A stretch of 41,350 nt of DNA from Acidobacteriota bacterium (GTDB lineage Bacteria; Acidobacteriota; Aminicenantia; JBFLYD01). The stretch covers positions 1 through 41,350 of the forward strand of contig JBFLYD010000021.1 of NCBI GenBank assembly GCA_040756905.1, read 5' to 3'. The position numbers and the translations under genes are program-made. This document shows, in pieces, positions 30,919 through 41,215 of this stretch (positions are counted from its first letter, which is position 1; each line of letters opens with the position of its first letter). The notes below the pieces were generated by a model. The model saw nothing but the letters and a program-made list of their open reading frames with translations, had not been told where the DNA came from and made no database searches.

Positions 30919-31060
30919 TATAAACGCATTTAATTCTGATGCATTCCTGTCCCCTCACCCCCCTCCCTGAACTTGTTTCATGGGTTGATTCGGAGTTGCG
31001 CAATGCAAGGCTGAAGCTTTGCCCTACATGTCAAATTATTTGGGTCGTTTGTATTAATTT
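30917..31060. repeat. Second MITE-like element filling the gap to the permease array
   Basis: It has the same ends as the element at 13.2 kb: TAATATAAACGCATT on the left (30918 onward) and GTTTGTATTAATTT on the right (31047-31060). Near the right is the half core GCAAGGCT-GA-AGCTTTGCCCTAC (31005-31027), which folds into a stem. The left half of the core is replaced by an unrelated C-rich stretch. The right end overlaps the stop codon of the convergent permease gene. Confidence 0.5.
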
Positions 31061-32450
31061 AACGGACATCATATTTTAAAAAAGCAATGAAAGCTAAGTA
31101 AAGTAGCAATAAATTAGAAAAGATTAATAAGCTGAAATCGATAAATATATTTTTAACCTGTTCACTCCCTTTAGGAATTTCATCCTTGAACTTTGGAATA
31201 ATTTCATAGTTAACTGGTTTGTTCGTGAAAAATAACTCTGACTCCGGGTTGATCCAATGGGGGCTATTAGGGTCATTAGCATCCTCTCTTTTAACAAATT
31301 CTAAAAGAATCTGGCGATAGATCTCCAATTTTCTTTTTAAATGCTCAAATCTAATTATTCCTCCGAGTATTATAGTCTCGTTTGCATATCTAAATTGTGC
31401 TGCTGGTGAGATCCTCGATAAATTTCTTGCCAATTTAAGTTGGTTCAGCTGCTTTTGATAATAATCATTTCGAATTGACATTTCTGCCTGTAACATCTTG
31501 TTTGTAGTTTCAGCCCTCACCTTATGAGATGGCCTGAAAGGATTTGAGGGCTCCATTGCCCATGTTCCTTCAGGTGCGTTCTCAAACATTTCTTTTTTTA
31601 CCAAGCTAATTTTTTCAATAATCTCTCCTCGCTCTGGCACAGAGTGTATCTGGGAGATTATAATCGCTCCCATATTAGGAATTAACAATACCAAGATTGC
31701 CCAGCATAAAAGTAAAGAAACCAAACTTGTGGATGAATGTTTTGTAAGGGAGCTCATCAGCAAGCCAAGAAAAGTAAAGCTGGAAATATACAAAAAAGAT
31801 AGCGCCAATGATGAAAGAACTTTAACTAATACATCGGTTCCAAGGGGAATGGATTTAAAATTTGTGATAATCAAAAGATTTAAAATTACTCCCACCAATA
31901 ATGGTATGAAAATGGTAATCAATACTCCAAAATATTTTCCGAGGATAATTTTCCACCTGTTTATATTCATAGATATTGAAAGCCTTAATGAGCCCCTTTC
32001 TTTCTCTCCAGAAATTCCGTCATAGGTTAACACTATAATTCCAAAACTTAAGATTATGCTGATGATAAAAATCCAGTCGACATCCTGAAATTTCTGAAGG
32101 AAAGGATTTCCACCTCCTTTACGGGGTTGATATTCAAATATGCGGAACGCATTGAAAATAAATAGATTGGGAAGATGTTTTTCGAAAGCTTCATTGATAA
32201 AAGCAGTTGGCCTGGGAGACAAATAAAACTTCTGGTCATGAAGGGAAAGCTTTCCCAAGTTGCTACTCAAGGAACGTAATTTTTCCTCTTCTTCGATAAT
32301 GTTGTCGCTATATTCTTTAATCTCAATTTTATAACGAGAGGTGTAAGAAATACCGTTAACAATAAAAAGAGAAATTGTAAGAATGGAAATCAGCAAAAAG
32401 CGAAGGCTATACAAATGATCTAAAAGCTCCCGTTTAATAATTAGCCACAT
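31059..32450 (-). CDS. ABC-2 type permease, array member 5 (last gene)
   Basis: A 463-residue membrane protein. A first helix (about 17-37) is followed by a roughly 80-residue outside loop, a helix, and the array's common motif YDGISGEKERGSLRLSISMNINRWKIILGK. Then come about four helices (ABC2_membrane_2/DUF3526 pattern), a second long outside loop containing SRISPAAQFRYANETI, and a last helix ending KYDVR. The gene starts 6 nt after the previous permease. It should work with the ATPase at 36.8-37.5 kb. Its stop codon lies at the edge of a repeat element. The substrate is unknown. Confidence 0.85.
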   Translation of the reverse strand: MWLIIKRELLDHLYSLRFLLISILTISLFIVNGISYTSRYKIEIKEYSDNIIEEEEKLRSLSSNLGKLSLHDQKFYLSPRPTAFINEAFEKHLPNLFIFNAFRIFEYQPRKGGGNPFLQKFQDVDWIFIISIILSFGIIVLTYDGISGEKERGSLRLSISMNINRWKIILGKYFGVLITIFIPLLVGVILNLLIITNFKSIPLGTDVLVKVLSSLALSFLYISSFTFLGLLMSSLTKHSSTSLVSLLLCWAILVLLIPNMGAIIISQIHSVPERGEIIEKISLVKKEMFENAPEGTWAMEPSNPFRPSHKVRAETTNKMLQAEMSIRNDYYQKQLNQLKLARNLSRISPAAQFRYANETIILGGIIRFEHLKRKLEIYRQILLEFVKREDANDPNSPHWINPESELFFTNKPVNYEIIPKFKDEIPKGSEQVKNIFIDFSLLIFSNLLLLYLAFIAFLKYDVR

Positions 32451-32456
32451 ATTTTT

Positions 32457-34058
32457 TTATTGGTAACGTGGATCATATCTTATAGTGGCAACATAACTGA
32501 GAGAAAATAAAATAACAACGATAATGATAAGAACGATGAGATCAATGGAAATTCTCTGGAGTGTATCGATATAATTCTCATTCTTTAAAGAAAAGCGGAG
32601 AATATCATTAACATCAAGGTAAGATTTCAAATGTTTCAAGATATCGATCGGACCATATTTAAACTCTGCAAACATTCTAAAGAAATTACCCTTTGTCACG
32701 CTTTCTAATTCTCTATAAGTTTTATACTTTCCCTCTGTATAATAGGCTATCCATTCATCTGCTGTTCTCATCTCAGATTCTTTCATCTGGGTAAAATAGG
32801 CAAAAGAGGAAAACAGGTTTTTACTCATGTAATAATTTATAATTTGTTCTCGATACCTTTTGCATTTTTCTATAAATTGAAGATGACTCTCCAAATCTGT
32901 CCTGGTTAAGCCAGAAGCTATGTGTCTGAATATAGTTAGAGGCGAAATTATTGAAAGATATTTAGTTAAATTACTTTGTCGAATAAGGTCATTTAGATAA
33001 TTTTGCTGGATCGCATATTTTCTCTGGGCATATTCTATTCTAAGTGGTTCAGAAAATGAGTTTAATTGCCTTCTATTTTCCATTACATCTTTTGGGCTGA
33101 TCATGCGAGTTTGTCCATCTATACCACCTATATAAAGCCAGTTTATTCCCATTACGGGTTTAGGAAGTTTTTCTTCAAAATTTTTTACCTTTTTTCCAAA
33201 TTCTTCATTCAGATTTTTTGTAGCTTTATCTATTGCTTCTTTAGGTATGATACTGGTCAAACTTTGAGATAAAAAAAGCGAGGCATTTGGCACAATTATC
33301 ACCAGAAAAACCCAGATAAACAATGCAATCATCAAACTAGTGGAAGAGCGAGAAGTAAGAGTAGAAATAAACATACCTAAAAGTAAAAAAATAAGAACAT
33401 AAAGCAATGAAGAAAGAGAAATGCTCAATATTCGAAGCCAGTCTTCAATTTTAAATTCAATAGAGCGATGCACAAGGATTACTAAAAAGCTTACAATAAA
33501 ACTCAATAATATGATTGGAAGTAATGTGAGAACATGACCTAATAGTTTTCCAACAATCAACCTATCACGGGAGATATTATTAGCTAAAGTAGTTGCCAAT
33601 GTTCCACTTTCTTTCTCTTTAGAGAAAGAATCATAAGTGAAAAGAAGGGCAAAAAGAGAAAGTAAGACCGAGCAGATAAAAGTAAAATCAATGTTAAGAA
33701 ATGAAGCAAGAAATGGGTTTTCCCTTTCAGTAGCTGAGCCCTCAGCCAGGAAAGGAACTTGCCCGAGGAGGATTTTTACTTTATTTCCAAGGACTTCTTC
33801 TGAATCTGAAATGAATATACTTAGAGGCTCAGGCTTTTTTAATACTGTTGGACGAATTTGGGAGTAAACATAAATTTCCTTGAATTCCTTTTCATACTTT
33901 TGGCTCTCCTGCTGGTAAATTTTCAATCTTTCAAGATAGTGGACAAGAGATAAATTAATACTTATAGGTATCAATAAAACACAGAGCAATAGGCCAATAA
34001 GGAATTTGAAAGTGAGAAGGCTACTCAAAAATTCTTTTTTAGAGATATTCCATATCAT
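32457..34058 (-). CDS. ABC-2 type permease, array member 4
   Basis: A 533-residue membrane protein, the longest of the array. It has the shared layout: an N-terminal helix after ISKKEFLSSLLTFKF, a first outside loop, and the motif YDSFSKEKESGTLATTLANNISRDRLIVGK. Four or so helices, a long second outside loop (with SIISPLTIFRHIASGL) and a last helix follow. The tail is RYDPRYQ, a variant with two extra residues compared with the other members. Spacing to the neighbours is 6 nt on both sides, which implies coupled translation. Confidence 0.85.
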   Translation of the reverse strand: MIWNISKKEFLSSLLTFKFLIGLLLCVLLIPISINLSLVHYLERLKIYQQESQKYEKEFKEIYVYSQIRPTVLKKPEPLSIFISDSEEVLGNKVKILLGQVPFLAEGSATERENPFLASFLNIDFTFICSVLLSLFALLFTYDSFSKEKESGTLATTLANNISRDRLIVGKLLGHVLTLLPIILLSFIVSFLVILVHRSIEFKIEDWLRILSISLSSLLYVLIFLLLGMFISTLTSRSSTSLMIALFIWVFLVIIVPNASLFLSQSLTSIIPKEAIDKATKNLNEEFGKKVKNFEEKLPKPVMGINWLYIGGIDGQTRMISPKDVMENRRQLNSFSEPLRIEYAQRKYAIQQNYLNDLIRQSNLTKYLSIISPLTIFRHIASGLTRTDLESHLQFIEKCKRYREQIINYYMSKNLFSSFAYFTQMKESEMRTADEWIAYYTEGKYKTYRELESVTKGNFFRMFAEFKYGPIDILKHLKSYLDVNDILRFSLKNENYIDTLQRISIDLIVLIIIVVILFSLSYVATIRYDPRYQ

Positions 34059-34064
34059 CTCTTC

Positions 34065-35492
34065 TCATCTCACATCATATTTTATGAAGGAAATGTAGCT
34101 TGAAATGAAAAATATCAGGAGGAAAATGATAAGTATTGAAAAAAATGGAAGACACCATAGAAGTCTTCCTTTTAATTCTTCCTGGTTATAAGAGAATTTA
34201 GGCCTATCTGACATATCAATAAATGTGTTCCAGGGATCTTCAGCAGGGTGATTTTTCTGAAATTCTGAAACTTTTTTCATGGCATATTCTCTGAATCTTT
34301 CAGCCCAATTTTTTCCAATTCTGGCAAAATGAATCATATTTCTTATCCCTGTTGAAGAAAGATCAGAAGCTAAATATGTGAAGTTGGAAAGAGGGGAAAG
34401 AAGGGAAATAATTCCTGAGATAATAATTTGAGAGTCCTGCTTTTTACCAAACTGTCTCCAGATTTTATCTGCCTTTTCATTTTGAATTCTATTAGCCTCC
34501 TCCCAGGCCTTCTGCCATTCATTTGTATATTCTTCCATAGCTTTCCTGAACGCAAGGTCAGTCTTAGCTCTTTCCTTCCGGTCTTTTTCTAAAGGAGTTT
34601 CTTTCAAGAAGGGATATTTTTTATAAAGCTGAGCTTCCTTCTTTCTCCACAACTTTCTTCCAAGTTCATCCCTTTCCACATCAGTAATCCTTGAGGTTTC
34701 TCTTTGAACTTTTATGTATGAAGGCATTTTCATGATGAACGAAGTAATGTATGGAGAAATATTTGGGATGATGAAAACAAATAAAACCCAGAAAAAAAGG
34801 GAAGTCAATATGGAAGAGGAAGAAAATCGATGTTTTGAGGATATAAAAATACCTATACAATAAAAAATTGATATGTATATTATGGCTCCTATAATTATTA
34901 TTAGAAAAGAAATCCAGTCAGATACATTAAAATTAAATTTTGAGTTGAAACTTATGATTAAAAGCCCAATTAACAAGGAGACAAAGAATGGGATAAGAAG
35001 GGTAATTATTCCGCCTGCAATTTTACCCAGGATTAATCTTGACCTTGAGATGCTGTTTGATAAAGCTGAGCTTAAAGTTAAATCCTCTCTTTCTCCTGAA
35101 ATAGAATCATAAGAGAGAATCAATGCAGCAAGGCTCAAGAAAATCGAGACTATGAAAGTGAAGTCTATAAGGGGGAATACTATAGGAATGGGGTCGTTAT
35201 CAAAGAATTCTAAATTTATATCTTCAGAAATACCTCTTATCATGGAATGAAAAGGAATAGGAGGTTGAAAAGGGTTTAAAATAGCTCCTATCCTGTTGAA
35301 ATGGGCATAATTTTTCAAGAAATTTTCAATTTCTATCTGCCTCTGGGAATATTCATCTGCTTTTTTAGAATAATCTATGCTTAAAAAGAAAAATGTCAAA
35401 GGAATAAGTATTATTAAAAATAAAAAGATTACAAAGAATTTGAATGAAGAAATATTATTTTGAACCTCTTTTTTCACAATTGTTTTAAACAT
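34065..35492 (-). CDS. ABC-2 type permease, array member 3
   Basis: A 475-residue membrane protein of the same family. It starts MFKTIVKKEVQNNISSFKFF, has the central YDSISGEREDLTLSSALSNSISRSRLILGK, the outside-loop segment SLLSPLSNFTYLASDL, and ends SFIKYDVR. The second outside loop is rich in charged residues (ERDELGRKLWRKKEAQLYKKYP). Only 3 nt separate it from the previous permease gene. The upstream gene's last codons (GCG AGA TGA) lie where a ribosome binding site would be. Confidence 0.85.
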   Translation of the reverse strand: MFKTIVKKEVQNNISSFKFFVIFLFLIILIPLTFFFLSIDYSKKADEYSQRQIEIENFLKNYAHFNRIGAILNPFQPPIPFHSMIRGISEDINLEFFDNDPIPIVFPLIDFTFIVSIFLSLAALILSYDSISGEREDLTLSSALSNSISRSRLILGKIAGGIITLLIPFFVSLLIGLLIISFNSKFNFNVSDWISFLIIIIGAIIYISIFYCIGIFISSKHRFSSSSILTSLFFWVLFVFIIPNISPYITSFIMKMPSYIKVQRETSRITDVERDELGRKLWRKKEAQLYKKYPFLKETPLEKDRKERAKTDLAFRKAMEEYTNEWQKAWEEANRIQNEKADKIWRQFGKKQDSQIIISGIISLLSPLSNFTYLASDLSSTGIRNMIHFARIGKNWAERFREYAMKKVSEFQKNHPAEDPWNTFIDMSDRPKFSYNQEELKGRLLWCLPFFSILIIFLLIFFISSYISFIKYDVR

Positions 35493-35495
35493 TTT

Positions 35496-36758
35496 TCATC
35501 TCGCATCATATTTAGCAAAGAAATAATAAGCTAAGGTAAAGAACATAATATTCCAGAAAATAATTAGAAATAAATCTAAAAAAGCACCTTCAAGAAGTAT
35601 TTCTGAGATTGACCTTTGATTGTATTTAAATGCATGGGAAATAGATGGTTTTTCTGTTTGATAGAGAAACGGAAGAATTCTATTTTTGTAAGTGATTAAT
35701 TCTCTTTTTAAATTCCTTTCCTCACCAATTCCGGTCCCAGAAATATCCATCATGGAAAAAATGTAGCTTGAAACAGGAGAAATCCTATTTATTGATTTGA
35801 CGAAATCGATAAACTTATCGAATTTGATTCTGTAAGATTCATCGAGTTTATCATTTTCAGAGCTTATTTTTTCCACCCTTGAAGCCCAATCTTTCAAAGT
35901 TTCACCTTTACCAATCTTTCTTTCCTGAATTCTTTCAAATACCTCACCTATCCATATGTGCTGCCTTTTCTGATTTATAGATTTAACTGATGGAAGATCT
36001 TTAGCTCCTCGAGCTATAAGACTTCCCGAATTGGGAATTACAAAAACTAAAATAGCCCATAAAAAAAGAAGAACTACCAGGGAGGTTGATGATTTTCTTG
36101 TGATGGATGAAATAAGAAATCCGAGAGTAAAAAATACGGATATATAAAAAATTGAAATGCTCAAAAGAATCAAAAATCTTGATGCATGATCAGAAGAAAA
36201 TTTTATTTGAGGATCAATGTTTATAATTAGAAAGGTAAGAAGGGATATAATTAGAAAAGGCAAAACGAGACATAAAAAATTTCCTATCCACTTTCCGAAA
36301 ACAATGTTTGCCCTTGAGATATTGTTGCAAAGTAAAACTCTTAATGTTCCTGATTCTTTCTCTCCACATATTCTGTCAAATCCAAAAAGAAGAGCAACTA
36401 AAGATAGAATCACTTTAATCACATAAAGAAAATCTACTGTTGGATAGAAAGAAAATATTGGGTTTGATGCTTTTTGTCCTGCTCCTACTCGAATTCTTGT
36501 AACAGAGATTTCAAAAGACCTGGTCATAGCTTCATCAACACCTTTTACAAAAATTGAAAGGGGATTGGGAGGAAGAACCACTATAGGCTCTTCTGGCTTT
36601 GGTTTTATTATATGATAGTCTGAAAGCCTTTCTTTATAGTCCTTATACATTATAAAAATGGAAAGGCTTAACAAAAGGGAAGTTAAAAGAATGGCAATAA
36701 AAAATTTATAGCTCAGAAGGTTGCTTCTTATTTCATTTTTAACAATTTCTTTGATCAT
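35496..36758 (-). CDS. ABC-2 type permease, array member 2
   Basis: A 420-residue membrane protein, the shortest permease of the array. It begins MIKEIVKNEIRSNLLSYKFF, carries FDRICGEKESGTLRVLLCNNISRANIVFGK, then about four helices, an outside loop with SINRISPVSSYIFSMMDISGTG, and the tail FFAKYDAR. It is the first permease after the ATPase gene, separated from it by 75 nt holding a strong stem-loop. The first outside loop contains a proline-rich patch (KPKPEEPIVVLPPNP). Confidence 0.85.
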   Translation of the reverse strand: MIKEIVKNEIRSNLLSYKFFIAILLTSLLLSLSIFIMYKDYKERLSDYHIIKPKPEEPIVVLPPNPLSIFVKGVDEAMTRSFEISVTRIRVGAGQKASNPIFSFYPTVDFLYVIKVILSLVALLFGFDRICGEKESGTLRVLLCNNISRANIVFGKWIGNFLCLVLPFLIISLLTFLIINIDPQIKFSSDHASRFLILLSISIFYISVFFTLGFLISSITRKSSTSLVVLLFLWAILVFVIPNSGSLIARGAKDLPSVKSINQKRQHIWIGEVFERIQERKIGKGETLKDWASRVEKISSENDKLDESYRIKFDKFIDFVKSINRISPVSSYIFSMMDISGTGIGEERNLKRELITYKNRILPFLYQTEKPSISHAFKYNQRSISEILLEGAFLDLFLIIFWNIMFFTLAYYFFAKYDAR

Positions 36759-36777
36759 TAGCTTCTGTGTAGCCCTT

Positions 36778-36823
36778 TAGTCATTTAGCCCGTTAGCTCT
36801 AAAGCCAAAAGGCTAAATGGCTA
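36778..36823 (-). promoter_or_regulatory. Stem-loop between the ATPase and the downstream permeases
   Basis: The minus-strand transcript can form a 13-bp stem with one mismatch (TAGCCATTTAGCC at 36823-36811 with GGCTAAATGACTA at 36790-36778) and a 20-nt loop. There is no T-run after it, so it is not a classic terminator. It is well placed to protect the upstream ATPase message from decay or to reduce read-through into the permease genes. Confidence 0.45.
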
Positions 36824-36833
36824 TCTTCATTGT

Positions 36834-37544
36834 TTATCTTGTCTCCATGTATTGAAGGTAGAGTTTCTCTAAATTCTCATGCTCTATCTCTTTTGAGGTC
36901 ATCTCTGCAACTAAGTATCCTTCTTTCATTATTCCAACTCTATCTGCAATCTCCTTTGCACGGAATATGTCATGGGTTGACATGAGGACTGCTTTTCCCT
37001 CATCCCTTATCTCAAATAGAATCTCGAGGAACTCATGGGCAGCCTGAGGGTCTAAACCTGCTGTTGGTTCATCAAGTAACATATTCTCTGCATCCTTTGT
37101 AATTGCAATTGCCAGAGCTAACTTCTGTCTCATCCCTTTTGAGAAGTGTTTCACCCTTTTCTCAAACGCCTCCTCCTCCAGTCCTACTCTTCTCATAATG
37201 TTGAAATAATCCTTCTTGGTTAAATTCTTTTTTCCTCCTAATTTTGCAAAAAAATCGAGGTTCTGTGTTGCACGAAGGTTTCCGTAGAGCATGACATTCT
37301 CTGGAACGTAGGAGACATATCTTTTTGCTTCAAGGGGGTCTTTTGTGACGTCTATTCCGTTTATAAAGGCAGTTCCAGAGGTTGGAGGAATAAAATTCAG
37401 GAATAGATTTATCGTTGTTGTTTTTCCAGCTCCATTTGCACCTAAAAGGCAGTATATCTCCCCTTTTTTTACCTCCATGTTTAAATTATTCAAAGCCCTT
37501 GTTCTATCCTCATATACTTTTGTGAGATTTTCAGTTTTAAGCAT
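36834..37544 (-). CDS. ABC transporter ATPase for the permease array
   Basis: An ATPase of the ABC-2 export type. Numbered from the GTG two codons upstream, Walker A is GANGAGKTT (37-45). The signature is FSKGMRQ rather than LSGGQ, usual in this group; Walker B reads NMLLDEPTAGLD, and the switch His is in MSTHDIFRAKEIAD. I choose the ATG at 37544, giving 236 residues, because AAGGAGG ends 5 nt upstream of it; the GTG at 37550 would abut that site. The AGG AGG codons for the last two Arg of the upstream NEW3 protein form the ribosome binding site, so the two are translationally linked. It is the only ATPase in view for five permeases. Confidence 0.92.
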   Translation of the reverse strand: MLKTENLTKVYEDRTRALNNLNMEVKKGEIYCLLGANGAGKTTTINLFLNFIPPTSGTAFINGIDVTKDPLEAKRYVSYVPENVMLYGNLRATQNLDFFAKLGGKKNLTKKDYFNIMRRVGLEEEAFEKRVKHFSKGMRQKLALAIAITKDAENMLLDEPTAGLDPQAAHEFLEILFEIRDEGKAVLMSTHDIFRAKEIADRVGIMKEGYLVAEMTSKEIEHENLEKLYLQYMETR

Positions 37545-37546
37545 AT

Positions 37547-39022
37547 TCACCTCCTTGTTAGTTTTATCCCAAATACCACAATGCCCACTAAAAGACCTAT
37601 GAGTAATGTTATCAGCACTGTTATACCCAGGATATTTGTTTTTGATGAGATGTGAATCCTTACGATCTTATCCTCTGATTCAATCCTTCTTCCAAAAGAT
37701 GTGCATTCGGTCTTAATCTTTGGTTCATAATCTCCAACTGATACATCTACTGGGGGAAGAAACCTTATCTTAACGATTCTCTCTTTATCCTGTTCCAATG
37801 ATTGAATTAAATCTGGCTCTACATCAGCTCTCCAGTTTAAAGGTAAATCCGTATATATTCTTATGTTATCCAATCTTCTTGTTCCTGTGTTTTTCACATT
37901 TACATCCATCTCCACATCCTCTCCCACTTTTATCTCATGGTATAGGTTTAAAGCTCCTACCTCAATCCTTCCTATTCCTCTGGGTATTATCTCAAGCCTT
38001 ACTTTTCCTCCCTTTATGTCTTTTAGAATAGCCATTTTGCCCTCTGGTCCTTTAGCCGTTTGGCTAATAGATCTTTCAAGCTTATTAGATTCTTCTTCAT
38101 CCAGACAGAGTGTATAAAACTCAATAGATTTATCTATTTTTACTTCCTCTGAAGGATTTTTTGGTAGGTAGAGTTTTAACTGGAGCTTTAAAGAGGTTAT
38201 TCCCTCAGAGAATTTTATCTGGGAGAGTCTTGCAGAAGTCTGGGGATCGATGAAATCGTAGGCTATCTGATGGGGAAGACCAAAGAGGTGAAGTCTAAAT
38301 ACAGAACCTTCCCTTGTGAACCTCTCCAAAGAGAGGTCAAATGAGGCTTCTCCTCCTAAATCAGCCTCCTGGGAGAATTGAGATGAATTCACTGTCACAA
38401 TGTTTGCGGAGGCTTCTTTTAGAAGATATACCTTTGTTCTCTCTTCTCTTCCTGCGTAGAAAACCGAAACCTCTAAGGATTCAACATCTTTAAGTAAAAT
38501 AAAATCTGCCTCTTTCGCCTCTCCTAAAGAAAGCGATGAGATTTTTTCCTGATACGGCTCTGAGATTATAAACCCATCTGAAAGAAGTGATACATATATA
38601 TCTTTTATCTCTTTCAGGAAATCCTGAGGAAATAGCTCTTCCTTTATTCCTAAAGAAAACAATGCTTCTAATTCCTTTGCTGAATAAAGAAGGGATACTT
38701 TTACATGGATTTTTCCCCTTTGATCCATCCATTTTGTGGCTGAATCAACTACAACTTTTGCCTCAGAACCAGTAAATGAGATAAGTGCTTGCTGATATTC
38801 AACCTGTGCCCTTAGATAGGAGGTTTCTTTCTTTGCAAACTCCTCCTCAGAGATTAAACCAGCTTCTTTTAGTTTCAGCGCTCTTTCATAATCTCCTCTC
38901 ATCTCCTGAAGGTGAAGCTGTGCTTTTTTGAGGTTTAAAAGTTTTTGGGTCTGAGATTCCTGGGGAAAGAGGAATAGAGATATAGAAATTAGAATCAAAA
39001 TAAAAAAAATCTTTTTAATCAT
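37547..39022 (-). CDS. Membrane-anchored coiled-coil/NEW3-domain protein
   Basis: A 491-residue exported protein. The signal peptide is 1-20 (ending LFPQ). A coiled coil (about 27-83, LNLKKAQLHLQEMRGDYERALKLKEAGLISEEEF) resembles the hairpin of HlyD/TolC-type adaptor proteins. The middle is beta-rich. A NEW3/Ig-like segment (about 385-460, VKVGEDVEMDVNVKNTGTRRLDNIRIY, then LPPVDVSVGDYEPKIK) precedes a C-terminal helix (463-487) and a basic end (KLTRR). It is thus anchored in the inner membrane with its body outside. It overlaps the RHH gene by 8 nt and the ribosome binding site of the ATPase gene. A periplasmic adaptor or substrate-capture role for the ABC system is an inference. Confidence 0.75.
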   Translation of the reverse strand: MIKKIFFILILISISLFLFPQESQTQKLLNLKKAQLHLQEMRGDYERALKLKEAGLISEEEFAKKETSYLRAQVEYQQALISFTGSEAKVVVDSATKWMDQRGKIHVKVSLLYSAKELEALFSLGIKEELFPQDFLKEIKDIYVSLLSDGFIISEPYQEKISSLSLGEAKEADFILLKDVESLEVSVFYAGREERTKVYLLKEASANIVTVNSSQFSQEADLGGEASFDLSLERFTREGSVFRLHLFGLPHQIAYDFIDPQTSARLSQIKFSEGITSLKLQLKLYLPKNPSEEVKIDKSIEFYTLCLDEEESNKLERSISQTAKGPEGKMAILKDIKGGKVRLEIIPRGIGRIEVGALNLYHEIKVGEDVEMDVNVKNTGTRRLDNIRIYTDLPLNWRADVEPDLIQSLEQDKERIVKIRFLPPVDVSVGDYEPKIKTECTSFGRRIESEDKIVRIHISSKTNILGITVLITLLIGLLVGIVVFGIKLTRR

Positions 39023-39206
39023 GTCTTAATCTCTCCATATCATCTGAAAATTCAAGCTTCCCTTCCATATTTATGATCTCCTCTATCCTCTTTTTTTTGA
39101 TGTATTCTTTAAGTGATAATATAATGGCCTCTGTTCTTGTCCTTGCTTTAGACAATCTTTTCACTTCCTCCAGTATATCATCAGGTAAAATGATTGATAT
39201 TTTCAT
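39015..39206 (-). CDS. Solitary ribbon-helix-helix protein (VapB-like)
   Basis: A 63-residue protein. MKISIILPDDILEEVKRLS is the DNA-contact strand and first helix. KARTRTEAIILSLKEYIKKKRIEEI is the second, close to the type II VapB/DUF2191 antitoxin pattern. The C-terminus (INMEGKLEFSDDMERLRHD) is the usual toxin-binding tail. No PIN toxin follows: instead the gene overlaps the NEW3 protein start by 8 nt, in the position where vapC normally lies. It may be an exapted autorepressor of the ABC operon or a leftover antitoxin. GGGA lies 5 nt before the ATG. Confidence 0.75.
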   Translation of the reverse strand: MKISIILPDDILEEVKRLSKARTRTEAIILSLKEYIKKKRIEEIINMEGKLEFSDDMERLRHD

Positions 39207-39240
39207 AATTTCCCAATAGATTAAGCAAACTCCATGCCAA

Positions 39241-39269
39241 ATTATATAAAATTAGAAAGAAGTCAACAA
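39241..39269 (-). promoter_or_regulatory. Promoter of the RHH-NEW3-ATPase-permease operon
   Basis: On the minus strand TTGTTG (39269-39264) and TATAAT (39246-39241) are 17 bp apart. Transcription would begin near 39234, about 28 nt before the RHH ATG. The RHH product could bind here. A TTGACT one half-turn inside is an alternative -35 but gives a spacing that is too short. Confidence 0.5.
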
Positions 39270-39352
39270 TTATATATATTTCCTTCCCCTGGGTTGAACC
39301 AGGTTTATTGACAAAAGCGGGTAAATAATTACTCAATTTGATCCATATTTCA

Positions 39353-39496
39353 TTAAAATTCTTTTTTTCTCTTTGATATTATTAGCTTCTTTCTATATGG
39401 GTAAAAATTTACACAAAAATTTAAGATTTTTACGCAAATTTTTAAGTTTCTCTTGATATTATTAGCTTTCCTCAGAAGCTTTTCATGGGTATTCAT
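39353..39496 (-). pseudogene. Small ORF resembling a HicA-like N-terminus, probably degenerate
   Basis: The minus strand has GAGGTGAGAAA directly before an ATG at 39496. It encodes MNTHEKLLRKANNIKRN followed by Lys/Asn/Phe-rich low-complexity residues to a stop at 39353 (47 residues). The opening resembles the N-terminus of some HicA-like small proteins, but the rest does not. An imperfect 20-bp direct repeat (AAGCTAATAATATCAAGAGAAA and its near copy about 80 bp away) shows that the region has been duplicated. It is either a decayed gene or a small unknown gene. Confidence 0.25.
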
Positions 39497-39528
39497 TTTC
39501 TCACCTCTTAATCCCTTTTCACCAATTA

Positions 39529-39713
39529 GTGTTGTGTCACTTAAATACCTTTCCTTATTCTTATGTGACACAACACTTTCCCTATGGGAGAAAGATCTCC
39601 TTAGACGCTTCGCTGAGCACCCCCAGACATGGGGAAGCCTTCTTCCCCATACCCCTTCAGTGTGCTGTAAGAGAGACCGTCTGCCTGCGAAGAGATTTAA
39701 GGAACAGCACACT
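39529..39713. repeat. Cluster of three perfect inverted repeats
   Basis: Three independent palindromes lie within 185 bp: 12-bp arms at 39529-39540 and 39565-39576 (GTGTTGTGTCAC), 9-bp arms at 39629-39637 and 39642-39650 with a 4-nt loop (ATGGGGAAG), and 10-bp arms at 39659-39668 and 39704-39713 (AGTGTGCTGT). The block is more GC-rich than its surroundings and does not code for a convincing protein. It follows the stop of the first permease gene and may hold its terminator, a structured RNA or a decayed mobile element. Confidence 0.5.
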
Positions 39714-39766
39714 AATATTCTCCACTCTTCCCTTCAAAGCTAATGGATAGGGAGTAATAGCAATAT

Positions 39767-41215
39767 TTATCGAACATCATATTTAATAAAGGAATAATAA
39801 GTGACAACGAAAAAAATGGCAGTATATATGATCAATATTGCTAAATCCACTGCTCTTTTTTTAATGGCATCTCCAATTGTGATAGATGAATAAGAAAAAA
39901 GAGGTAGCTCATAGATTCTTGGAATATCCTCATCAGAACCTCCAAAGCCAAAATTCATAGACTCTTTTCCTCTCTTAACTGTCATCTGGTCTTGCCATGT
40001 TTTACTCCAGAATTTCTGCTCGATAAGATTCTGGTAAGTTCTTACGGATTGGAAGAATTTTTCCCTTTCTCCAGGACCTGTTCCAGCTAAATCAGATAGA
40101 AGATAAGCAAAACAAGAGGCTGGAGATATTCTTGAGATGATAACTGCTAAGATTTGCTGGTTAGTCATACGACGATCATAATCAGATTGAAGTTTTAAGA
40201 GCGAATTGGCAATTTTTTCTTCAAAAATCTTTACAATAGGTTTTCTCAATTTCCTGTATTTATTCCACCAATCTCTCCCCCCGCCAATCATTCCTTCTTT
40301 ACCAATCATATTTTCCCTTTCTAATGCTTCTACAAGCTTTGCTCCTTTTTCTTTTTCAATTTCCCTTCTGACACTTTCTTTCTCCCGTTTAAAAACTATC
40401 TCATCTTTTACAGGATAAATAACCTTGGAGATGATACCTGAAAGCCTCGGTATTCCAAGAAAAAGAATCACCCATATAAAAAGAAGAAAGGTAAAAGCAC
40501 TTAAAGAGCTATGAGTTCTTGAAGATATGAACATTCCAAGATGAAGGATTAAAGTTATCTGGATAAAGGAGGAAATTATTATCCCAATAAATGGAAAAAG
40601 AATTCCTCTATCGAACAAAGGATAGCCGAAAATTAGAAGGATGAGGATACCAATGAGGACTGATAAAATATAAGGAATCAGGATAGTTATGTAGCCTCCT
40701 AAAAGTTTTCCCAGAATGATAGTGCTTCTACTGGAGGAATTGGAAAGGGTTAACCTAAGGGTTCCCTTTTCCTTTTCTCCAACTATTGAATCAAAACTCA
40801 TCAATAGTGCCATAAGAGTGATGACTATGTTAATAATAAAAAGCAAATCAAGATGACCGAATAGAGGCGCTATAATTTCATTCCTGTTTTCACCTCCACG
40901 CCATTCAATTTCTTCCTTAGAAATGCTGAAAGAATTGGGCAAAGAATCTTCATAGCCTGAGATTAACGCATTTAAAGGAGGAGTTTTTCTAAATCCTTGG
41001 ACTCCAGCAATGTATCTTCCTCCCTTTTTTGATTCTTCTAAGGCTGAAAGATAATCCCTTTCGAGAGAGGATAATGATTGGGCTTTGGTTGAGTAATTTT
41101 TAAAATTTACATAGAAGCCAAGGGGAATGAGAACAATGCAGAGAAGAACAAGAATAAAAAATCTAAGACTCACGACATGCTCAAGGATTTCTTTTCTTAT
41201 GATTGTGACTAACAT
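39767..41215 (-). CDS. ABC-2 type permease, array member 1 (detached)
   Basis: A 482-residue membrane protein of the same family. MLVTIIRKEILEHVVSLRFF leads into the first helix. The central motif FDSIVGEKEKGTLRLTLSNSSSRSTIILGK starts at 141. The outside loop has VISRISPASCFAYLLSDLAGTG, and the end is SFIKYDVR. It lies on the same strand as the rest but is separated from the RHH gene by 560 nt of repeat-rich DNA, so it is probably a separate transcript. AGGAAGA lies 5 nt before the ATG. A mobile-element end begins about 9 nt upstream, so its native promoter is missing or replaced. Confidence 0.85.
   Translation of the reverse strand: MLVTIIRKEILEHVVSLRFFILVLLCIVLIPLGFYVNFKNYSTKAQSLSSLERDYLSALEESKKGGRYIAGVQGFRKTPPLNALISGYEDSLPNSFSISKEEIEWRGGENRNEIIAPLFGHLDLLFIINIVITLMALLMSFDSIVGEKEKGTLRLTLSNSSSRSTIILGKLLGGYITILIPYILSVLIGILILLIFGYPLFDRGILFPFIGIIISSFIQITLILHLGMFISSRTHSSLSAFTFLLFIWVILFLGIPRLSGIISKVIYPVKDEIVFKREKESVRREIEKEKGAKLVEALERENMIGKEGMIGGGRDWWNKYRKLRKPIVKIFEEKIANSLLKLQSDYDRRMTNQQILAVIISRISPASCFAYLLSDLAGTGPGEREKFFQSVRTYQNLIEQKFWSKTWQDQMTVKRGKESMNFGFGGSDEDIPRIYELPLFSYSSITIGDAIKKRAVDLAILIIYTAIFFVVTYYSFIKYDVR

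Follow-up and report, generated by a model that had tools for sequence, protein, structure and literature searches.

A putative tripartite ABC-2 exporter of Acidobacteriota with a non-canonical NEW3 adaptor and one ATPase for several permeases

How five ABC-2 permeases encoded beside a single ATPase might be energised, and which role the NEW3-domain protein encoded next to this ATPase might play, are the questions raised by a locus in assembly GCA_040756905.1 (Acidobacteriota; Aminicenantia; JBFLYD01). The genome is a MAG of 2.56 Mb in 69 contigs with a completeness estimate of 97.8%. The window, meaning the whole stretch of DNA that was analysed, is the entire contig JBFLYD010000021.1 (C21; 41,350 bases), so that anything upstream of P5 is unassembled. 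In the order of transcription the genes encode P5, an RHH protein of 63 aa, the NEW3 protein, the ATPase, P4, P3, P2 and P1; all of them lie on the minus strand, and the open reading frames stand where an earlier note on this DNA had placed them. The tandem genes P4, P3, P2 and P1 are separated by 3, 6 and 6 nt, in agreement with the 3-6 nt given there, and P4 follows the ATPase gene after 75 nt. The NEW3 gene overlaps the ATPase gene by 4 nt and the RHH gene by 8 nt. In detail, the features are:

31059..32450, minus strand: P1, NosY-type ABC-2 permease, 463 aa, second of the P2-P1 pair (PF12679, 8.8e-31; P1 clade)
32457..34058, minus strand: P2, NosY/DUF3526-type ABC-2 permease, 533 aa, first of the P2-P1 pair (PF12679, 8.7e-31; PF12040 over cut-off; P2 clade)
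34065..35492, minus strand: P3, ABC-2 permease, 475 aa, second of the P4-P3 pair (PF12679, 3.7e-31; P3 clade)
35496..36758, minus strand: P4, ABC-2 permease, 420 aa, first of the P4-P3 pair (PF12679; model pLDDT 91, best solved match NosY; P4 clade)
36834..37550, minus strand: ATPase, DrrA/NosF/ABCA-like NBD (PF00005, 5.4e-28; alignment)
37547..39022, minus strand: NEW3 protein, putative adaptor with signal peptide, alpha-hairpin, Ig-like stalk ending in the NEW3 domain, and C-terminal TM (PF10633, model)
37553..37633, minus strand: C-terminal transmembrane helix of the NEW3 protein, residues 464-490 (model; conserved GIVVFGIKLTRR tail)
37715..37930, minus strand: NEW3 (NPCBM_assoc) Ig-like domain, residues 365-436 (PF10633, 2.1e-9)
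38771..38953, minus strand: NEW3 protein residues 24-84, an alpha-hairpin like that of MFPs (modelled as helices 24-53 and 59-84; profile matches to the EmrA, MexJ and ZneB hairpins)
38849..38884, minus strand: RLS motif (R-x3-L-x6-S) at the hairpin tip, R47/L51/S58 (motif definition PMC3391258)
39015..39206, minus strand: VapB-type antitoxin without VapC, a neighbour outside the exporter (PF09957, 3.2e-7, over cut-off)
39767..41215, minus strand: P5, stand-alone-type ABC-2 permease, 482 aa, upstream of NEW3 (PF12679, 1.6e-34; 19-row P5-type clade)

The end of the contig (41200-41350) carries a short repeat that contig C22 shares and that also opens contig C50; this repeat may have halted the assembly upstream of P5. 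A permease on C50 near this shared repeat was considered as a missing part of the array and rejected, since it belongs to another, small ABC-2 transporter that has a separate ATPase. Another repeat of about 188 bp (39527-39714) is dispersed in the genome in about 40 copies of 78-95% identity; it is MITE-like and has an inverted repeat of 13 bp close to one of its ends, and Rfam gave no match for it.

The RHH protein had been counted as a member of the system. Its product carries a VapB antitoxin domain, no VapC gene is adjacent, the NEW3 gene follows directly, and in none of the surveyed relatives is an RHH gene found beside NEW3. A role as regulator or partner was rejected on the grounds of the VapB match and of this missing conservation; the gene is the relic of a VapB antitoxin and not part of the exporter. 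The arrays that had been proposed as the object of a neighbourhood survey do recur in other genomes as NEW3, ATPase and permease genes, without the RHH gene in the relatives surveyed.

All five permeases match PF12679 (ABC2_membrane_2) with E values of 6e-29 to 2e-34 and 101-120 bits against a cut-off of 27.2, and P2 lies above the cut-off of DUF3526 (PF12040), the other four below. Among solved proteins NosY is their sole homologue at the sequence level and the best match in fold. The P4 model shows a NosY-like fold with a coupling helix, and NosY is its top Foldseek match with a TM-score to the target of up to 0.78, although the rmsd is high. The central motif [FY]D..[SC].E[KR]E..[TS]L, formerly described as common to all five, maps to the short helix, 138-144 in the model, that separates TM2 from TM3; P5 reads FDSIVGEKEKGTL, however, so that the [SC] position is not valid for this permease. 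The site is the expected ATPase-coupling region of ABC-2 permeases, i.e. ordinary ABC-2 sequence without a private signature, and the motif was rejected as a special mark of this system for this reason and because of the deviating P5.

The five permeases share only 25-33% pairwise identity, which marks them as old paralogues. A maximum-likelihood tree of 74 permeases, accompanied by a larger quick tree, separated P4 (support 99/98), P3 (100/98), P2 (100/97) and P1 (96/83, or 99/96 with one further row) into groups of their own and contained a second pair class, P2b/P1b. P5 falls inside a broader stand-alone group, a 19-row P5-type clade supported by 100/99. In relatives the gene order recurs as P4 then P3 and as P2 then P1: wherever both genes are full-length in a surveyed NEW3 array, P3 directly follows P4 (14 of 14 arrays, counting the window), and one locus (L103) repeats the order ATPase-P4-P3-P2-P1 of the window. 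At another locus (L104, 9559-14315) a P2-P1 pair separates P4 from P3, like a unit that has been inserted there, and P3 is cut by the contig end. Four permease classes thus form conserved clades with a conserved order, contrary to the possibility, left open before, that they are recent lineage-specific duplicates. A recent tandem duplication was rejected on the basis of the low identity and the old clades.

The other permeases of the same genome extend this picture. A pair on contig C22 has the order P4 then P3 and takes a basal position in the P4 as well as in the P3 clade, and the members of a pair on contig C61 are split between the P2 side and the P1 side of the tree. Together with the conserved order, these placements suggest that permease pairs duplicate as units. 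In a complete Latescibacteria chromosome P2-type and P1-type genes have been multiplied jointly, which, combined with the ordered pairing, is the pattern that co-duplicating heterodimer partners would produce, short of proof. Near many of these P2-P1 genes (L120-L122, OY282352.1, 5.207-5.262 Mb) lie paralogous exported proteins of about 265-300 aa of the YGGFSSHPDSLQVFYDYIHGQEMMKVEAG type; the two tested had no match in Pfam. Judged from the trees, the P4-P3 and P2-P1 clades are old and separately supported and the P5-type permeases stand alone, and the ordered pairs probably are heterodimers. The suggestion of interchangeable or hetero-oligomeric channels is therefore retained in a changed form: instead of five equivalent units there are probably two heterodimeric pairs and, in addition, a type that stands alone.

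The ATPase of the window is intact in Walker A, the FSKGMRQK signature, Walker B and H193 according to the alignment, and the ATPases adjoining NEW3 in relatives are 44-71% identical to it. A whole-genome search identified it as the single ATPase of its group in the own genome, the next best showing 38% identity. Additional ATPase genes past the right edge, which the earlier note had named as a refutation, would lie outside this contig, and the search of the whole genome returned no second close ATPase. About 11 permeases are encoded in this MAG of 69 contigs at three places (C21, C61 and C22), all of them near contig ends where an ATPase gene could be missing. The arrangement of one ATPase for many permeases recurs in the neighbourhood survey of relatives. 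In one genome (G037) NEW3 is followed after 17 nt by P4 and then by P3, with no ATPase gene at the locus; its sole orthologous ATPase is encoded on another contig beside a P5-like permease. A second genome (G049) combines one ATPase with eight permeases at its NEW3 locus, and on the Latescibacteria chromosome 15 such permeases lie within about 54 kb, versus 3 ATPases in total. The permeases multiply and the ATPase does not, yet this expansion is not universal, since two complete Aminicenantes chromosomes contain a minimal permease-ATPase-NEW3 unit with one permease per ATPase.

These minimal units would also fit a rival explanation, in which one or more ordinary ABC-2 exporters have grown into an array by tandem duplication, only one pair uses the local ATPase, the remaining permeases use other ATPases or decay, and NEW3 is an accessory stalk and no OMF adaptor. 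Further ABC-2 ATPases are indeed present in the own genome, two of them at 37-38% identity and each beside its own weaker PF12679 permease, and one C61 permease is truncated near the contig end; the orphan permeases could thus pair with a less similar ATPase instead. We nevertheless consider this explanation unlikely, as the permeases of the window are full-length and belong to old clades whose order is kept across many genera, as a close second ATPase is lacking in the own genome, and as the locus of G037 has no ATPase at all.

The NEW3 protein was modelled (pLDDT 86) with a signal helix, an alpha-hairpin (24-53, 59-84) of high pLDDT, several beta-rich domains and a C-terminal helix (464-490). 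A profile search against the PDB returned MFP-type adaptors only, every match running through the hairpin (EmrA, MexJ, ZneB) and being weak (E 8e-4 to 4e-2), and the only other match in the own genome is the hairpin of a MacA-type MFP. The motif R-x3-L-x6-S is the published TolC-docking motif of MFP hairpins (PMC3391258). At the tip of the NEW3 hairpin R47 is conserved in 25 of 25 sequences, L51 is L in 19 and M in 5, and S58 is S in 18 and T in 1, with P or A replacing the serine in 6. The whole-fold search found generic Ig-stalk proteins and no MFPs. NEW3 proteins have no HlyD match in Pfam, and neither lipoyl nor beta-barrel domains were found flanking the hairpin, from which we conclude that the protein is not a member of the MFP (HlyD/MacA) family.

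The nearest named relatives of the NEW3 protein belong to Candidatus Aminicenantes (Acidobacteriota) MAGs, and within the same class the identity is about 60%. True orthologues are present in 12 of 60 close genomes, the own genome included, mostly as a single copy; in five further ones only the hairpin is matched. At E <= 1e-10, orthologues occur in 26 of the 297 genomes of the phylum, and others were found in Gemmatimonadota and Latescibacterota. An ATPase gene on the same strand lies within 1.7 kb in 43 of 60 surveyed NEW3 genes and within 200 nt in 36, the remaining genes being mostly near contig ends; this adjacency is seen in Aminicenantes, other Acidobacteriota and Latescibacterota.

Relatives also provide a link to a TolC-type outer-membrane channel (OMF; PF02321). 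At 10 loci, spread over three phyla, the stop of the OMF gene and the start of NEW3 overlap by 4 nt, and at 14 more an OMF gene lies within about 3 kb. With the three OMF queries used, none was found beside NEW3 in many Acidobacteriota loci. In the own genome the OMF is encoded away from the array, the best match (41% identity) being on contig C69, followed by glycosyltransferase genes. Given the MFP-like hairpin and this partner gene in relatives, NEW3 looks like an adaptor, as had been supposed before. It seems to be undescribed and recurs in at least three bacterial phyla: in the open-access literature a NEW3 domain was found with an ABC transporter in secretome work only, and nothing was found on DUF3526 or on an ABC-2 system with an Ig-like periplasmic adaptor.

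Several neighbourhoods of NEW3 show further features. In Gemmatimonadota and Latescibacterota four loci (L116-L119) have an OMF gene followed by two tandem NEW3 genes, three of them without a nearby ATPase. A glycosyltransferase family recurs at eight NEW3 loci of relatives, and at one locus (L086) genes for a sigma-54 response regulator and a histidine kinase adjoin OMF-NEW3, related genes recurring elsewhere.

Among solved structures NosY is closest to the permeases and NosF is one of the closest to the ATPase, and the gene of the periplasmic NEW3 protein is coupled to that of the ATPase. A NosDFY-like machine might therefore be assumed, in which NEW3 would replace NosD and the permease-ATPase would perform mechanical work on a periplasmic maturation factor instead of export. 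Profile, model and fold searches, however, gave no NosD-like match in the array and characterise NEW3 as an Ig stalk, which carries an MFP-type hairpin with RLS motif and has a TolC-type partner gene in relatives; in addition, several permease classes would be left unexplained. We regard this as very improbable, and the system, lacking NosD, is not a NosDFY member.

The best solved matches of the ATPase, the ABCA phospholipid transporters, point in another direction: lipids or another hydrophobic cargo might be exported or flipped and then handed to periplasmic LolA-like carriers, with a different permease pair for each carrier. In the own genome a LolA_like protein is encoded directly next to one orphan permease, and exported proteins are encoded next to others, but only one neighbour is a significant LolA_like match (another has E 0.006, a third no match), the family does not recur at the NEW3 arrays of relatives, and the C61 context looks RiPP-like (PqqD domain, M16-type peptidases). 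The idea thus appears improbable. In detail, the second permease set on C61 (L010-L011) is surrounded by genes for two M16-type peptidases, a PqqD-domain protein, a 6-bladed beta-propeller, a LolA_like protein and an ABC exporter with fused ATPase.

As the probable reading we favour a tripartite, cell-envelope-spanning ABC-2 exporter in which the NEW3 adaptor is non-canonical, one ATPase is shared and the permease dimers are interchangeable. In such an exporter an ATPase dimer would drive NosY-type permease dimers, P4/P3 and P2/P1 acting as heterodimers and the P5-type permease probably as a homodimer, and one ATPase might serve several of them, including pairs encoded elsewhere in the genome (in trans). 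The C-terminal helix of NEW3 would anchor the protein in the inner membrane, with the Ig-like stalk spanning into the periplasm, and its MFP-like hairpin with the RLS motif would be presented to a TolC-type OMF, encoded next door in relatives and here on C69. More tentatively, with somewhat less than even confidence, the system may be a modular export platform, in which one ATPase, together with an OMF-docking adaptor of a new class that has its MFP-like hairpin at the N-terminus, an Ig stalk and its anchor at the C-terminus, energises up to about a dozen swappable permeases, mostly as heterodimeric pairs and some of them in trans. If this is true, the HlyD/MacA fold is not the only scaffold on which OMF docking has arisen, and a function would be assigned to the NEW3/DUF3526-type gene set of Acidobacteriota, Latescibacterota and Gemmatimonadota. 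The system also offers a direct test of how one ATPase chooses its permease partners.

Among known systems YbhFSR-YbhG-TolC, a tripartite ABC-2 exporter of E. coli (PMC7190983), is similar in its ABC-2 ATPase, two different permeases, hairpin adaptor and probable TolC-type exit. However, YbhG is an MFP, whereas the adaptor here combines an Ig stalk with a C-terminal anchor; the present ATPase has one NBD, YbhF two; and up to 8 permeases per locus occur in the present system. With MacA, AcrA and HlyD the NEW3 protein shares an alpha-hairpin with RLS motif, an inner-membrane anchor and the link to a TolC-type channel, but it lacks a lipoyl or barrel match, and its hairpin is N-terminal and its anchor C-terminal with the Ig-like stalk in between.

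NosFY(D), which acts in nitrous oxide reductase maturation, has the same permease family and ATPase type. The present system differs from it by NEW3 and OMF partners in place of a NosD-like one, by several permease types and by permeases of 420-533 aa with larger periplasmic parts versus 276 aa, and no nos genes were seen within the window. The profile matches described above also connect all five permeases to the PF12679 permeases and P2 to those of DUF3526 (PF12040).

Finally, a single ATPase for several permease complexes is known from MsmK, MceG and FhuC, and the sharing proposed here would be analogous. The shared-ATPase systems found in the literature are importers only, whereas the present system would export; if the proposal is true, the motor of an ABC exporter can also serve many permeases, and the system would be the export-side counterpart of these importers.
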